A DNA stretch of 64,000 bases, from positions 5,674,001-5,738,000 of the forward strand of contig NZ_CP110389.1 of the NCBI RefSeq assembly GCF_026015985.1, written 5' to 3'. Under the pieces are notes generated by a model that ran no database searches, was not told where the DNA came from, and saw nothing but the letters and a program-made list of their open reading frames with translations. Below, piece after piece: positions 10,760 to 22,933 of this stretch (position 1 is the first letter of the stretch; each line of letters starts with the position of its first letter). The DNA comes from Rhodopseudomonas sp. P2A-2r (GTDB lineage Bacteria; Pseudomonadota; Alphaproteobacteria; Rhizobiales; Xanthobacteraceae). The translations under genes and the position numbers were made by a program.

Positions 10760-11257
10760 TCAGTTTTCCTTCGCGGCGGCGCCACCTGCCGAGGAGCTGA
10801 GTGAGCCAGCCTGCTCCAGGGTGGTCTTGAAATACTCATTGCCGTCACCAAGCGTGACCCGGCGCTCGCAGGCCGGCGCGCAGCTGTAGGATTCACGATT
10901 GACGCCACGATAGATGGTGACGACGTTGTCCGACGGACCTGCGACCTGGATGACCCGGTCCATCAGCACTTCGCCGCGGCGGTTCAAGGCGATGAGGTTT
11001 GTCGCGCCGTACCCCTTGCCGGTCACGACGACAACGCCGCCCGGTTGCAGCGACACATCGGCGATCATCGGATTGCCGATCACGACGGTGGCGATGAGAG
11101 CAGGAAACTTGACCAGCTTGGCTTGGTCGACCTTCACCTCGATGACATCGTCAGCCGTTGCAGCGACGCCTCCGGCGGAGACCAGCATAACTCCGGCCGC
11201 AATGGATAGGCCGATAAAAGACGCGCGCAGCTGTGTGCGCAAAAACTGAAACGACAT
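10760..11257 (-). CDS. stand-alone pilus-assembly protein with secretin (CpaC) N-terminal-type domain
   Basis: 165 residues from the ATG at 11257; a longer frame starts at 11320 but the signal peptide fits the later start (IGLSIAAGVMLVSAGGVAATA). The mature part follows the pattern of the pilus-secretin N-terminal domain: VKVDQAKLVKFP, then IGNPMIADVSL, TGKGYGATNLIALNRRGEVL and VIQVAG. A C-terminal section with a Cys pair (CAPACERRV) follows. It has no secretin barrel, so it is probably a periplasmic accessory of the Flp pilus. Two other domains of this type occur nearby, in CpaC and, unexpectedly, inside TadB. Confidence 0.8.
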   Translation of the reverse strand: MSFQFLRTQLRASFIGLSIAAGVMLVSAGGVAATADDVIEVKVDQAKLVKFPALIATVVIGNPMIADVSLQPGGVVVVTGKGYGATNLIALNRRGEVLMDRVIQVAGPSDNVVTIYRGVNRESYSCAPACERRVTLGDGNEYFKTTLEQAGSLSSSAGGAAAKEN

Positions 11258-11392
11258 TCTGTACTCCGGGACGATACAAGCCGGCAAAAGCAGATACGCA
11301 GCGGTGCCGGCGCCCGACATGGCAAATGTGCCGTTAATTGATGAAGGAACTGCAAACGATCAGCTGACGGGGCGGCTTGCCTGCCTTGCCTG

Positions 11393-13592: not shown

Positions 13593-13716
13593 CGGCGGCA
13601 GAAAATACCGCTCGCGCGATTTAGATACGCCTCATTAACCATGCTTTGACGAATAGCTGGTCAACTCCCCATTACAGCGGCGCCCGCGTCGCAGCGTAAT
13701 GTGGAAAGTGAAGCGT

Positions 13717-14511
13717 ATGAATACCGCACGCATTGTGGTCCTGGCCATTGCCATCGGAGCCGGTGGCGTGGCGCTGTATCTCGCAAGCGGCGTCGACCAG
13801 CAGCCGCCGCCGCAGGCCGAACCGGTCGCACAGCTCCAGACCGTCGACGTTCTCGTCGCCAGATCCGATATCGCGCTCGGCCAGTCGCTGAACGCGGCCG
13901 ACGTGCAATGGCAGAGCTGGCCGGCCTCCGCCGCCAGCGCCAACGTCATTCGCCGCACCGAACGTCCCGACGCCACCACCCAGATCGCCGGCGCGATCGC
14001 GCGTTCCCCGTTCATCGCGGGCGAGCCCATCCGCGAGCCCAAGCTGGTCCGCGCCAACGGCTCCGGATTCATGGCGGCGGTGCTGCCCGCCGGAATGCGC
14101 GCCGTCTCCACCGAAATCTCACCGGAAACCGGCGCCGGCGGCTTCATCCTGCCGAACGACCGCGTCGACGTGATCCTGTCCAAGCGCGACAAGAATCCCG
14201 ATCGCGGCAGCAGCGGCGAGGTCGTCAATTCGGAGGTGATCCTCAGCAACGTGCGCGTGCTGGCCATCGACCAGGCTCCCAAGGAAAGAGACGGCCAGAA
14301 CTCCGTGGTCGGCAAGACCGCGACGCTGGAGCTGAAGCCGGATCAGGCCGAGGTGCTGGCGCGGGCGCGCCAGAGCGGCACCCTGTCGCTGGCGCTGCGC
14401 GCGCTGGTCGACGCCAACGTGCCCGAAACTGCAACTGACGATCGCAACGGCAAGAGCGCCAGCGTCAACATCATTCGCTTCGGCGTTTCGACGACGACCA
14501 CGACCAAGTGA
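13717..14511 (+). CDS. cpaB: Flp pilus assembly protein CpaB (RcpC)
   Basis: 264 residues from the ATG at 13717 (MNTARIVVLAIAIGAGGVAL), preferred over an in-frame ATG at 13699 because GGAAAGTGAA precedes it. An N-terminal anchor is followed by an SAF/AFP-III-like domain (VDVLVARSDIALGQSLNAAD) and the CpaB middle (GMRAVSTEISPETGAGGFIL, then NDRVDVILS). It is periplasmic, probably working with the secretin channel or the peptidoglycan. Its stop overlaps the region where the cpaC frame opens. Confidence 0.93.
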   Translation: MNTARIVVLAIAIGAGGVALYLASGVDQQPPPQAEPVAQLQTVDVLVARSDIALGQSLNAADVQWQSWPASAASANVIRRTERPDATTQIAGAIARSPFIAGEPIREPKLVRANGSGFMAAVLPAGMRAVSTEISPETGAGGFILPNDRVDVILSKRDKNPDRGSSGEVVNSEVILSNVRVLAIDQAPKERDGQNSVVGKTATLELKPDQAEVLARARQSGTLSLALRALVDANVPETATDDRNGKSASVNIIRFGVSTTTTTK

Positions 14512-14528
14512 CCAAGAGGACGCAGGCG

Positions 14529-15980
14529 ATGAGGCGCATGACAACCCGCGGATCGATCCAGACCTTGATGGTCCGCGCCCTGTCGTTCACGGCTGTGAGC
14601 GCGTTCACGCTCAACCCGGTGCTGACGCCGGTGTACGCAGCCGAGCTGCGCGCCGCGGCAGCGCTGTCGGGCGACGGACAGATGGGTGGCCGCTTTCTTG
14701 CGCTCGGCGTCGGCAAATCCATCGTCATCGACCTGCCGCGCGACATCAAGGATGTGCTGGTCGCCGACCCCAAGATCGCCAATGCCGTCGTGCGCTCGGC
14801 GCAGCGTGCCTACATCATCGGCGCCACCGTCGGACAGACCAATATCGTGTTTTTCGATGCCAGCGGCCAGCAGATGGCAGCCTATGACATCGCCGTCACC
14901 CGCGACATCAACGGTGCCCGTGCTGCGCTGAAGCAGGTGCTGCCCAATGCCGATATCCGTATCGAAGGCATCGGCGACGGCATCATGCTGACCGGCACGG
15001 TGGCAAGCCCGCAGGAGGCCCAGCAGGCCAGCGATATCGCCGCCCGGCTCGCGGGAGGGGCCGACAAGGTCGTCAACAGCATCACGGTGCGCGGTCGCGA
15101 TCAGGTTCTGATCAAAGTCACCGTCGCCGAAGTCCAGCGCAACATCGTCAAGCAGATGGGCGTCGACCTGTCGGCGTCGCTGGGCTACGGCACCTCCGTG
15201 GTCAAGTTCAACAATACCACGCCGTTCACCGCACTCGGCCGCAACCTGGTCGACGGCAACAGCCTCGCTGCATCGTTCGGCTCGACGCCCTCAGTCACGG
15301 CGACGGTGAAGGCGATGGAGAACGCCGGCGTCATGCGCACGCTCGCCGAGCCGAGCCTGACCGCGATCTCCGGCGAAACCGCCAATTTCCTTGCCGGCGG
15401 CGAATTCCCGGTACCCGGCGGCAATACCTGCGATCCGACCACGCGCATCTGTACCACCCAGATCACCTTCAAGAAGTTCGGTATCTCGCTCGGCTTCACG
15501 CCGGTCGTGCTCAGCGAAGGTCGCATCAGCATGCGCGTCGCCACCGAAGTCTCCGAAGTGACCCAGGAAAATGCCGTGACCATCAGCGGCACGTCGATCC
15601 CGGCGATCAAGACCAACCGCGCGGACACCACGCTGGAAATTCCCTCCGGCGGCACCATGGTGATGGCCGGCCTGATCAAGCAGCAGACCAAGCAGAGCAT
15701 CAGCGGCCTGCCCGGCATGTCGCAACTGCCGGTGCTCGGCGCACTGTTCCGCAGCCGCGACTACGTCAACAACAACACCGAGCTGATGATCATGGTGACG
15801 CCCTACGTGGTGCGCGCCGTGGCGCAGAAGGACCTGTCGCGTCCGGATGACGGCTTCGCCGACCCGTCCGATCCGCAGTCCGACCTGCTCGGCAACATCA
15901 ATCGTATCTACGGCGCCCCGGGCCGCGTCGAAGCCGGAAACAAGAGCTATCGCGGCACCTACGGCTTCATCACGGACTGA
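14529..15980 (+). CDS. cpaC: Flp pilus outer-membrane secretin CpaC (RcpA)
   Basis: 483 residues from an ATG at 14529, chosen because GAGGA precedes it at good spacing; a GTG at 14508 overlapping cpaB is possible. Order: signal peptide (to about residue 38, VYAAE), the pilus-secretin N-domain at 57-126 (LGVGKSIVIDLPRDI to YDIAVTRD), a BON-like domain at about 130-195, and the secretin barrel domain at about 235-430 (LAEPSLTAISGETANFLAGG). It forms the outer-membrane pore for the Flp pilus. Its N-domain is closely matched by an insert in TadB. Confidence 0.95.
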   Translation: MRRMTTRGSIQTLMVRALSFTAVSAFTLNPVLTPVYAAELRAAAALSGDGQMGGRFLALGVGKSIVIDLPRDIKDVLVADPKIANAVVRSAQRAYIIGATVGQTNIVFFDASGQQMAAYDIAVTRDINGARAALKQVLPNADIRIEGIGDGIMLTGTVASPQEAQQASDIAARLAGGADKVVNSITVRGRDQVLIKVTVAEVQRNIVKQMGVDLSASLGYGTSVVKFNNTTPFTALGRNLVDGNSLAASFGSTPSVTATVKAMENAGVMRTLAEPSLTAISGETANFLAGGEFPVPGGNTCDPTTRICTTQITFKKFGISLGFTPVVLSEGRISMRVATEVSEVTQENAVTISGTSIPAIKTNRADTTLEIPSGGTMVMAGLIKQQTKQSISGLPGMSQLPVLGALFRSRDYVNNNTELMIMVTPYVVRAVAQKDLSRPDDGFADPSDPQSDLLGNINRIYGAPGRVEAGNKSYRGTYGFITD

Positions 15981-19518: not shown

Positions 19519-20781
19519 ATGAACATACAGGCGCTCGCACTGGCCTTTCTCGCTTTCACCGCGGTCGGCGGAGTCGCGTGGGTATTCATCTATCCGATGC
19601 TGTCCGGCGAGAAAAAGGCCGAGCAGCGCCGCGCCTCGGTGGCCCGGACCGCCCCGGTCGTGCGCCAGGTCGACAAGGCGCAGCGTACCCGCCGCGAGCA
19701 GGTCGAGGGGTCGCTGAAGGAAGTCGAGGCGCGTCGCCTGAAGGAAAAGAACGTAGCGCTGCCGATCCGTATCGCGCAGGCCGGGCTGGACTGGACGGCG
19801 CAGAAGTTCCTGGTGGTTTCCTGCATTCTGGGCGCCGTGGCCTTCGGCATTCCGATGTTTCTGGCACTCAATCCCGGGCTGACCTCCCCGGGCTATCTTC
19901 GCGAGACGGCTCTCGACGGGCCGGGCACGTCGCGGGGACTGGATCTCGGCTATGGAAAATCCATCGTGATCGAACTCCCGCGCGAGATCCGGAACGTGCA
20001 GGTCAGCGCACCGCAGGTTTTGAAAGTTCTCCGCCGCACCGAACAGAGCATCTTCGTGACAGGCCTGACCACGGGCGATGCCAGCATGGTGCTGCTCGAC
20101 GACAAGGGACTGCAGATGGTGGCGTACAATGTCGCCGTCACCCGCGACCTCTTCAGCAGCCTGCTTGCCGCGCTCGGTCTCGGCTTTGCCGCCGGCTTCG
20201 GCCTGCCGCGCTGGGTGCTGAACTTTCTCAAGAAGCGCCGCGAGAAGAACTTCCTCAAGGCACTGCCTGACGCCGTCGACGTGATCGTGCGTGGCATCAA
20301 GGCTGGCCTGCCGCTGTTCGATTCCATCAAGGTGGTGGCCGCCGACGCGCCCGAGCCGCTGAGGAGCGAGTTCTACGCCATCATCGAGACCCAGGCCATC
20401 GGCATGCCGCTTGGCGAGGCCTGCGCCCGCATGTACGAGCGGATGCCGGTGCCGGAAGCCAACTTCTTCGGCATCGTCGTCGCTATCCAGCAGAAATCAG
20501 GCGGTAACCTGTCGGAAGCGCTCGGCAACCTGTCGAAGGTGCTGCGCGACCGCAAGAAGATGGCCGAGAAGATCCAGGCGATGTCGATGGAAGCCAAGGC
20601 ATCGGCGGCCATCATCGGTTCGCTGCCGCCGATCGTCATGCTGCTGGTCTATCTGAGCACGCCCGACTACATCTCGCTGCTGTGGACCCATCCGACCGGC
20701 CGGCTGATGCTGGCCGCCAGCGCGGTATGGATGTCGTGCGGCATTTTCGTGATGAAGAAAATGATCAACTTCGACTTCTGA
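19519..20781 (+). CDS. tadB: Flp pilus inner-membrane platform TadB with an inserted secretin N-type domain
   Basis: 420 residues from the ATG at 19519 (GAGG at good spacing), versus about 325 for usual TadB. Order: N-terminal membrane segment 5-25; charged cytoplasmic stretch 30-95; membrane segment 97-117 (FLVVSCILGAVAFGIPMFLA); an insert at about 118-211; membrane segment about 212-231 (SLLAALGLGFAAGFGLP); the T2SSF domain (FLKALPDAVDVIVRGIKAGL to KKMAEKIQAMSMEAKASAA); and C-terminal membrane segments to 420. The insert (LGYGKSIVIELPREI to YNVAVTRD) aligns without gaps to CpaC 59-126, with 32 of 68 identical by my count. By topology it should be periplasmic. The frame is continuous on both sides. 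The platform role follows from the family; the insert's role is unknown. Confidence 0.93.
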   Translation: MNIQALALAFLAFTAVGGVAWVFIYPMLSGEKKAEQRRASVARTAPVVRQVDKAQRTRREQVEGSLKEVEARRLKEKNVALPIRIAQAGLDWTAQKFLVVSCILGAVAFGIPMFLALNPGLTSPGYLRETALDGPGTSRGLDLGYGKSIVIELPREIRNVQVSAPQVLKVLRRTEQSIFVTGLTTGDASMVLLDDKGLQMVAYNVAVTRDLFSSLLAALGLGFAAGFGLPRWVLNFLKKRREKNFLKALPDAVDVIVRGIKAGLPLFDSIKVVAADAPEPLRSEFYAIIETQAIGMPLGEACARMYERMPVPEANFFGIVVAIQQKSGGNLSEALGNLSKVLRDRKKMAEKIQAMSMEAKASAAIIGSLPPIVMLLVYLSTPDYISLLWTHPTGRLMLAASAVWMSCGIFVMKKMINFDF

Positions 20782-20790
20782 CGGTGCAAC

Positions 20791-21765
20791 ATGATTGATT
20801 ACCTGGTCACGAAGCTTCACGATGTCCGCTTCCTGACGATGTTGATGGCCGCCGTCGCCGCGAGCGCGACGGCCTGGAGTTTGATCACGCCGCTGCTGGC
20901 CGGCGACGGCCTGGCCAAGCGCATGAAGGCGGTGGCTTCCGAGCGCGAACGTATCCGCGCGCGCGAACGCGACCGGCTCACCAAGAACGAGCGGGTGTCG
21001 CTGCGGCAATCGCCGAAGCAACTGGTGTCGCGGGTCGTCACCGACTTCAACCTCGGAAAATGGCTGGCCCAGGAGGCCGCCCTCGACAAGCTGGTGATGG
21101 CCGGCTATCGCGGCCAGGCGCCTTACGTCACGTTCCTGTTCTTTCGCGCGGTGATGCCGATCGCGTTGCTGGTCCTGGCGGTGCTCTATGTATTCGTGAT
21201 CTCGCAGATGCAGCAGTCGCTGCCGATCAAGATCGGCATGTGCATCGCCGCGGCCTGGCTCGGCATGCAGGCCCCGATGATCTTCCTCAAGAACGCCATC
21301 TCCAAGCGCCAGCTGTCGATCCGGCGGGCATTTCCCGATGCGCTCGATCTGCTGTTGATCTGCGTCGAATCCGGCATGTCGATCGAGACCGCATTTCGCA
21401 AGGTCAGCATCGAGATCGGCTCGCAGTCGATCGCGCTGGCCGAGGAGTTCACCCTCACCACCGCCGAACTGTCGTACCTGCCGGATCGCAAGGTGGCCTA
21501 TGAAAACCTAGCAAAGCGCACCGGCCTCGAAGGCGTCAAGTCGGTCTGCCTGGCGCTGATGCAGTCGGAACGTTACGGCACCCCGCTCGGCCAGAGCCTG
21601 CGCGTGATGGCCCAGGAAAACCGCGACATGCGCATGAACGAGGCCGAAAAGAAGGCCGCCGCATTGCCGCCGAAGCTGACTGTGCCGATGATCCTGTTCT
21701 TCCTGCCGGTGCTGTTCGTGGTCATTCTCGGACCGACCGGCATCAAGGTCGCCGCGATGCAGTAA
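20791..21765 (+). CDS. tadC: Flp pilus inner-membrane platform TadC
   Basis: 324 residues. Membrane segments lie at about 15-38, 112-135 and 142-160 and at the C-terminus (LTVPMILFFLPVLFVVILGP). The T2SSF domain lies between them (RRAFPDALDLLLICVESGMS, EGVKSVCLALMQSERYGTPL). TadC partners TadB as the base of the Flp pilus, moved by CpaF. It starts nine bases after tadB and is the normal family length, with no insert like the one in TadB. It is the last gene of the plus-strand operon. Confidence 0.95.
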   Translation: MIDYLVTKLHDVRFLTMLMAAVAASATAWSLITPLLAGDGLAKRMKAVASERERIRARERDRLTKNERVSLRQSPKQLVSRVVTDFNLGKWLAQEAALDKLVMAGYRGQAPYVTFLFFRAVMPIALLVLAVLYVFVISQMQQSLPIKIGMCIAAAWLGMQAPMIFLKNAISKRQLSIRRAFPDALDLLLICVESGMSIETAFRKVSIEIGSQSIALAEEFTLTTAELSYLPDRKVAYENLAKRTGLEGVKSVCLALMQSERYGTPLGQSLRVMAQENRDMRMNEAEKKAAALPPKLTVPMILFFLPVLFVVILGPTGIKVAAMQ

Positions 21766-21923: not shown

Positions 21924-22730
21924 TTATGACCGCCCGCGCGCGTCGTCACGGCCGGCGGCGCCGACCTTGGGGCTGCCCTTGCCGCTGAGCATCTGCTTGA
22001 GATAGGCGACATTGGCTGCGGCCTCATCGGCCGGCAGATCGGCCTTGACGATGCTTTCGGCCTCGCTGAAGCGGCCCTGCAGCCCGACCACCAGCCCGAG
22101 ATTTTGCCGCACGCGCGGATCGGCGTTGCCGCCGCCATAGGCGCGGCGCAGCGTCGACTCGGCCTGCGGCAGATCCTTCGACAGCATGTAGGACAGGCCG
22201 AGATTGGACAGGACCGACGGCTCCTCCGGGCGCATCTTCAGCGCGCTGTCATAATAGCGGCGCGCCTCGTCATGGCGACCCATCTGGTCGAGCACGGCGC
22301 CCTGGACCGAGAGGATCCGCCAGTCCGGATTGGCGGGCGTGTGCGCGGCAGCCAGCATGTCAAAGGCGCGCTGGAAATTGCCGTTGTCGGCGAGTGCACG
22401 GCCATAGCCGGCGAGCAGCTGCTTGTTGCCGGGATTGGCGATGGTGGCCTGTTCGAACACCGCGACCGCCTGGGCGCGCTGTCCGGCGGTGCGCAGCGCC
22501 TGGCCGTAGCGCAGCGCCGCGTCGGCGTCCTTGGGATTGCTGCGGTAACGCTCGCCGTAGGCATCGATGGACGCGCGGGGATCGACGTCCGGCCGCGCTT
22601 CGGCCCTGGCGCCGAGCGAGCCGGTGATATCGGGCATGCCGGCGGTCTGGCAGCCGGCCAGTCCAACAGCCAACACCGCGATCGCGGCGGCAGAGGCGAG
22701 AAGCCGGGCAATACTGGACGTTGGACGCAT
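21924..22730 (-). CDS. tadD: Flp pilus assembly lipoprotein TadD (TPR)
   Basis: 268 residues from the ATG at 22730 (MRPTSSIARLL), chosen over an upstream start at 22760 because it places a signal peptide and lipobox (AVLAVGLAGC, Cys near residue 27) at the N-terminus. The body is tetratricopeptide repeats (AALRYGQALRTAGQRAQAVA, PEEPSVLSNLGLSYMLSKDL). TadD is a periplasm-facing lipoprotein needed for secretin stability in Flp pilus systems. It is convergent with tadC across a palindromic repeat. Confidence 0.88.
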   Translation of the reverse strand: MRPTSSIARLLASAAAIAVLAVGLAGCQTAGMPDITGSLGARAEARPDVDPRASIDAYGERYRSNPKDADAALRYGQALRTAGQRAQAVAVFEQATIANPGNKQLLAGYGRALADNGNFQRAFDMLAAAHTPANPDWRILSVQGAVLDQMGRHDEARRYYDSALKMRPEEPSVLSNLGLSYMLSKDLPQAESTLRRAYGGGNADPRVRQNLGLVVGLQGRFSEAESIVKADLPADEAAANVAYLKQMLSGKGSPKVGAAGRDDARGRS

Positions 22731-22933
22731 GAACGTGAACTCGTGCTGCGCGCTGGACAAACGCGGAATGGCTTCAGAAATAGAGTGTTAACCCTAATGG
22801 CCGGTTAACCGGCCGGCCGGAACCTGGCCGCCTGAGACAATGCGCAATCTCGCCGCCGGCCTCTGACATTTCCGGCCGTCATGGGGTAAGCCTGTGGGGC
22901 GTCCCCGCTGCTGCCTTCCGCGAGACCCCGCTT

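Follow-up and report, generated by a model that had tools for sequence, protein, structure and literature searches.

A PF13629 domain related to the CpaC N-domain in the TM2-TM3 loop of the Tad pilus platform protein TadB

In the window (the whole stretch of DNA analysed here, 64,000 nucleotides) the platform protein TadB of a Tad pilus carries a second domain, of family PF13629, between its transmembrane segments TM2 and TM3. This insert is a real, recurrent, minority trait of TadB, seen in some soil bacteria; it changes the architecture of the protein and does not define a new system. We tentatively favour the view that the insert may serve as a dispensable contact module in the periplasm, placed where the pilus conduit begins and perhaps touching CpaB. 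The genes and segments concerned are as follows.

19519-20781, plus strand: tadB (cpaG), a 420-aa inner-membrane platform protein with an inserted domain; start at 19519
19807-19869, plus strand: TM2, residues 97-117 (hydropathy peak 93-121; model helix 94-117)
19870-20151, plus strand: inserted loop, predicted periplasmic, residues 118-211 (hydropathy and loop-length comparison)
19933-20142, plus strand: PF13629 domain, residues 139-208 (Pfam; Ig-like fold predicted; nearest in Foldseek are VirB9 N-terminal domains)
20152-20211, plus strand: TM3, residues 212-231 (hydropathy peak 211-230)
20278-20652, plus strand: T2SSF cytoplasmic domain, residues 254-378 (Pfam; fold matches EpsF/OutF/PilC)
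14508-15980, plus strand: cpaC secretin, which keeps its own N-domain and from whose family's N-domains the insert descends
14697-14900, plus strand: PF13629 N-domain of CpaC, residues 64-131 (Pfam)
13699-14511, plus strand: cpaB (RcpC family, periplasmic alignment protein; PF16976, E 1.5e-34), the proposed contact
20791-21765, plus strand: tadC, the partner platform protein, without insert (Pfam)

The tadB gene is placed between cpaF and tadC in the tad locus. An hmmscan search of TadB recovered T2SSF (PF00482) at residues 254-378 with an E-value of 5.3e-20 and 72.1 bits (curated cut-off 25.2) and PF13629 (T2SS-T3SS_pil_N) at residues 139-208 with an E-value of 5.7e-11 and 42.4 bits (cut-off 23), the latter match spanning profile positions 3-72 of 72 and lying in frame within tadB. 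Up to an E-value of 0.1 Pfam gave nothing beyond these two domains; a secretin domain is absent from TadB by the same search, PF13629 being joined to T2SSF instead, and TadC contains T2SSF alone. The initial annotation had described the 420-codon frame as unusually long, had placed about 94 residues between its hydrophobic segments and had called them a copy of the CpaC N-domain that TadC lacks, and all of this holds. The loop between the hydropathy peaks at 93-121 and 211-230 comprises about 94 residues, insert-free TadBs have a loop about 96 residues shorter (43 versus 139 residues on one measure), and BLASTP aligned the loop without gaps to CpaC of the same locus with 36 of 79 residues identical (46%, E 1e-21), in keeping with an earlier hand count of 32/68, whose CpaC numbering starts 7 residues later than ours.

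The genome is a single 6.74-Mb contig with PF13629 in three places, CpaC, TadB and a standalone protein of 186 aa (10760-11320, minus strand) near a pilin gene. A counterpart of this standalone protein was found in 18 of 20 relative loci, the other two of which end at contig ends. Beside tadC, at 21924-22760 on the minus strand, lies a lipoprotein-like frame that by eye is apparently rich in tetratricopeptide repeats and could be the pilotin TadD.

The insert is predicted to fold as an Ig-like beta-sandwich resembling the VirB9 N-terminal domain. Its model reached a mean pLDDT of 84, with 70 of 95 residues at pLDDT >=90, and Foldseek returned seven matches at E <0.001, all of them chains from the core complexes of type IV secretion systems. 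VirB9 is named in the titles of three of these, 7o3t_B, 8rt6_v and 8rt6_B. A sequence search of the PDB with the insert gave no match up to an E-value of 1, and the model of whole TadB was moderate (mean pLDDT 65.5, pTM 0.44). The CpaC/RcpA N-domain has itself been described as VirB9-like or as a small Ig fold (PMC10499894, PMC12307814). As proposed in the initial annotation, the TM2-TM3 loop is predicted to lie on the periplasmic side: K+R outnumber D+E by 17 to 9 before TM2 and are balanced within the loop (10 versus 10). In PulF, the loop joining TMS1 and TMS2 has been described as short and periplasmic (PMC10790770).

Of 120 listed homologue clusters, 117 combine PF13629 with PF00482, P0117, P0119 and P0120 being without PF13629; these clusters are the best 120 of 8000 scored candidates, and their ranking by similarity to the window protein favours insert-bearing proteins. 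Clusters P0002-P0004 are 92-94% identical to TadB of the window, have the same length and contain both domains. Together with the one-contig genome and the insert-bearing TadBs of other genomes, these three clusters led us to reject an assembly or annotation artefact, for which nothing was found in favour and whose probability we consider negligible; the initial annotation had likewise argued against an assembly chimera. Among the metagenomic TadBs, P0118 and P0010 are near-identical up to about residue 268 and very different thereafter, so that one may be a recombinant or an assembly chimera.

The extra length is nonetheless not ordinary in the family. An uninterrupted match over all 420 residues was obtained in 1 of 18 genomes of the window's own genus (Tardiphaga) and in 3 of the 391 genomes sampled across the family, a TadB match being present in 317 of these. 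A match running through the insert and TM3 was found in 5 of 265 Bradyrhizobium genomes, the genus of G321 (Bradyrhizobium lablabi SZCCT0009), and in 1 of 16 genomes of Rhodopseudomonas, the genus of G236 and also of G176 and G190. In the order sample of 397 genomes, which includes at least 19 family members, the window's own genome gave the only full-length match among the matches listed, and a strongly diverged insert could escape this search. Five of 80 loci hold a TadB with the insert, the Bradyrhizobium MAG loci L069, L070, L071 and L145 being carriers; a sequence pattern picked out 71 CpaC N-domains in the remainder, and L140, at first sight a divergent insert, proved to be a CpaC. The loop was short in all of 60 further family TadBs (58 by pattern, 2 by eye), which were chosen among genomes without an uninterrupted match and thus have no bearing on the frequency of the PF13629 insert; four of these genomes (G003, G007, G008, which is a Tardiphaga, and G036) had already been sampled.

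By tree placement and identity, the insert descends from the N-domain of the family's own secretin CpaC. The tree comprised 40 insert representatives, 27 CpaC N-domains from the family or neighbouring groups and 20 CpaCs from other families over 75 columns, and was a quick tree without bootstrap in which the program flagged long branches. A single branch with an SH-aLRT of 90 set off the 40 inserts, which lay within the CpaC N-domains of the family, and the 20 CpaCs from other families fell apart from both. In a first tree, rooted on the standalone PF13629 proteins, the inserts were not one clade; with CpaC outgroups they were one group. Since the inserts are on average 47% identical to CpaC and only 20% to the standalone PF13629 proteins, an origin from the protein at 10760-11320 was rejected. 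We also rejected the idea that the insert makes up for a CpaC, CpaB or standalone domain that has been lost: in the three fully read insert-bearing loci (window, G236 and G321) CpaC with its N-domain, CpaB and the standalone protein all remain, and the insert is an addition.

On a TadB-core tree from which the loop was excluded (63 rows, thinned from 145) the presence of the insert requires at least ten changes, none of the strongly supported branches forcing more than one, so that the number of gain and loss events is uncertain. Comparison of tadB from G236, which has the insert, and G145, which has none, revealed 37 differences in 947 aligned bases at a distance from the insert and 34 in the 163 next to it (17/100 on the right flank and 13/50 on the left, the alignment being uncertain on the TM2 side). 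Such raised divergence is as expected if a short tract had been replaced by recombination, and gain and loss would fit alike. In the loci of these two genomes (L049 and L064, Rhodopseudomonas group) tadB is about 96% identical outside the insert.

The insert evolves faster than its parent domain in CpaC, with dN/dS below 1 among close relatives. Inserts had a mean pairwise identity of 48%, compared with 90% among CpaC N-domains and 75% among standalone domains, a gap that is widened by the inserts having been thinned at 85% identity and the 91 CpaCs left unthinned. In the three fully read insert-bearing genomes the CpaC N-domains had identities of 0.87-0.92 and dN/dS of 0.08-0.17, the corresponding values being 0.27-0.41 for the PF13629 part of the insert and 0.74-1.16 for dN/dS of the whole insert. 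All pairs with the insert of the window, which has lost much of the DPKIANA segment kept by CpaC, were near neutral, with dN/dS of 0.58-1.07 over the PF13629 part and 0.63-1.16 over the insert as a whole, and these pairs stand at high divergence (dS 0.63-1.12). Four Bradyrhizobium carriers gave six pairs, which are not independent: dN/dS of the PF13629 part was 0.05 for the closest of these and 0.27-0.43 for the other five, and the same six pairs gave 0.00-0.06 for T2SSF. Their synonymous rate was higher in the insert than in T2SSF, which would fit recombination.

R20, R38 and G51 are kept in all 40 inserts. Of the hydrophobic strand positions L26, I46 and V36, the first two do not vary across 91 CpaC N-domains from the family or neighbouring groups, and each is kept in a single insert, L26 being replaced by R in 28 and Q in 8 and I46 by T in 30 and S in 7; at V36, 19 of the 40 inserts have S or T and 8 retain V. 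That these positions point outward is read from strand alternation, not from model coordinates. CpaCs of other families are less strict, keeping L26 in 0.70 and I46 in 0.60. R42, too, is kept in one insert, with Q in 31. CpaC residues conserved to at least 90% are retained in the inserts alike at hydrophobic (0.51) and polar (0.52) sites; therefore this count does not distinguish fold from interface, and conservation points to no particular interface.

The low ratios among the Bradyrhizobium carriers and the three constant residues speak for constraint. They count at the same time against a somewhat less likely explanation in which the insert is a tolerated passenger, the hairpin accepting near-functionless foreign beta-sandwich domains that are spread by recombination and lost again. 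The departures from CpaC that many inserts have in common, such as R42 to Q, and the integrity of the insert in 117 of the 120 clusters, a list ranked by similarity to the window protein, are further points against a passenger, which would itself account for the repeated changes of presence on the TadB-core tree, the restriction to a minority of genomes, the fast divergence, the near-neutral pairs with the window and the occurrence of two unrelated domain types at one site.

The second domain type was found in Tardiphaga sp. RYN_497 (G004). Its TadB (L051:1069-2409, minus strand) has 447 residues and a different loop, in which FlgD_ig (PF13860) matched below cut-off (E 1.5e-4, 22.1 bits versus 27). 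A protein search with this loop yielded six proteins (P0122-P0127), each of which has T2SSF; two are partial sequences, and the genome of at least one is that of L051 or nearly identical to it. P0125 passes the FlgD_ig cut-off with 31.8 bits versus 27, and P0124 and P0126 are below it. The loop was matched in 306 of the 391 family-sample genomes, G004's own included, and L188, the other loop match examined, is FlgD by Pfam, with 48 of 117 residues identical to the L051 insert. The FlgD-type insert is an event separate from the PF13629 insert of the window, and the two belong to unrelated sequence families. One hairpin thus houses domains of two unrelated kinds, a secretin domain and what is apparently a domain of the flagellar hook cap, as if the TM2-TM3 loop were a natural socket that takes in borrowed domains. 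Literature searches, judged by titles and abstract openings of the papers listed, gave nothing on a PF13629 or FlgD domain in TadB, and the FlgD-type domain at this loop is new in this analysis.

Published models show TadB and TadC assembling on the CpaF ATPase (PMC11300603) and TadA, TadB and TadC in a 6:3:3 arrangement (PMC11300603, PMC12307814). RcpC, the counterpart of CpaB, is described as a dodecameric alignment ring anchored in the inner membrane; the isolated N-domain of Pseudomonas RcpA is monomeric and binds RcpC by co-purification, and an AlphaFold model sets the C-terminal hairpin of RcpC on this domain, removal of the hairpin alone not abolishing binding (PMC12307814). With TadB and TadC as a trimer of heterodimers, about three insert domains would stand beneath the CpaB ring. 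The insert copy could touch CpaB, as its parent domain binds that ring in Pseudomonas, and the contact could steady or gate the platform under the conduit. The binding of the secretin PilQ by the neisserial platform protein PilG (PMC4527729) offers a precedent. Because the same loop takes a FlgD-like Ig domain in another Tardiphaga lineage, the role may be steric or adaptor-like rather than directed at a single partner; we know of no reason for a FlgD-type insert to bind CpaB. Fast divergence, the near-neutral copy of the window, the FlgD alternative and the frequent absence of the insert all argue against a specific CpaB partner.

The initial annotation had instead proposed a dock, in which the TadB domain pairs with or faces the CpaC N-ring and directly links inner- and outer-membrane parts. 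Family and ancestry are common to the insert and the CpaC N-domain, VirB9 N-domains form rings in T4SS core complexes (PMC10499894), and a platform-secretin contact has been reported in Neisseria, where PilG binds the PilQ N-terminus, in the authors' view possibly via the short periplasmic loop of PilG, although their mapping indicates PilG residues 27-154 (PMC4527729). This pairing nevertheless seems unlikely. L26 and I46, hydrophobic throughout the family's CpaCs, are polar in nearly all inserts, and the insert has little resemblance to an additional subunit of the CpaC ring; the claim is weakened further by the faster divergence of the insert, its absence from most relatives and the FlgD-like alternative. 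In addition, the monomeric state and RcpC binding of the isolated RcpA N-domain (PMC12307814) argue against it, as do the roughly three TadB copies in the models versus 13 secretin subunits (PMC11300603, PMC12307814) and an RcpA/TadD pull-down that did not readily yield any inner-membrane component (PMC10499894).

As a decoy or gate, the TadB copy would fill the place on CpaB that belongs to the CpaC N-domain, and no pilus would be assembled before the secretin had docked. Such a role would build on the descent that the insert shares with a CpaB-binding domain, and PMC12307814 offers the speculation that contact between RcpA and RcpC sets off assembly. We consider this quite unlikely: the sequence changes in the inserts may have cost the CpaB site too, and a FlgD-type insert is hard to reconcile with it. 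A variable loop that helps to escape phage or toxin proteins aimed at the pilus platform would also show fast divergence, traces of allele exchange and replacement of domains. We know of no such partner, however, and a loop in the periplasm does not reach the cell surface, which makes an arms race very improbable.

With the TadB/CpaG proteins (T2SSF, PF00482) of alphaproteobacterial Tad pili the window TadB shares gene order, T2SSF and the pattern of transmembrane segments, and own-genus TadBs without the PF13629 insert are 87-93% identical to it over about residues 213-420; unlike these it has about 96 extra residues, predicted to be periplasmic, that form a second domain. The insert agrees with the CpaC/RcpA N-domain in family, predicted fold and R20, R38 and G51, and differs from it by its place in an inner-membrane protein, its faster evolution and some polar residues at hydrophobic positions. 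GspC and PilP are adaptors to the secretin N0 domain. Like TadB with its insert, they are inner-membrane proteins with a domain near the secretin base (PMC10499894), but secretin binding by TadB is a proposal and its Pfam matches up to an E-value of 0.1 are T2SSF and PF13629 only. According to PMC10499894, the Tad system is without a homologue of GspC or PilP.

Whether the motor platform itself contacts the CpaB/CpaC conduit is, in the cited passages, a matter of models. Naturally occurring TadBs that have gained a periplasmic domain and close relatives without it are ready-made test pairs for such a contact, G236 and G145 being one. Assays of Tad function exist for cluster 2 of Bradyrhizobium diazoefficiens USDA 110 (PMC12918737). 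The TadB variants also illustrate how one part of a nanomachine gains domains from two other parts at a single site. A wider reading, which we find doubtful, is that the TM2-TM3 loop is an evolvable socket in which a spare Ig-like domain, copied from another envelope machine of the same lineage (the pilus secretin, the flagellar hook cap), has been installed at least twice, the domain directly linking the platform to the CpaB/CpaC conduit. If this were true, the insert-bearing Tad systems would possess a platform-conduit adaptor that insert-free Tad systems lack.
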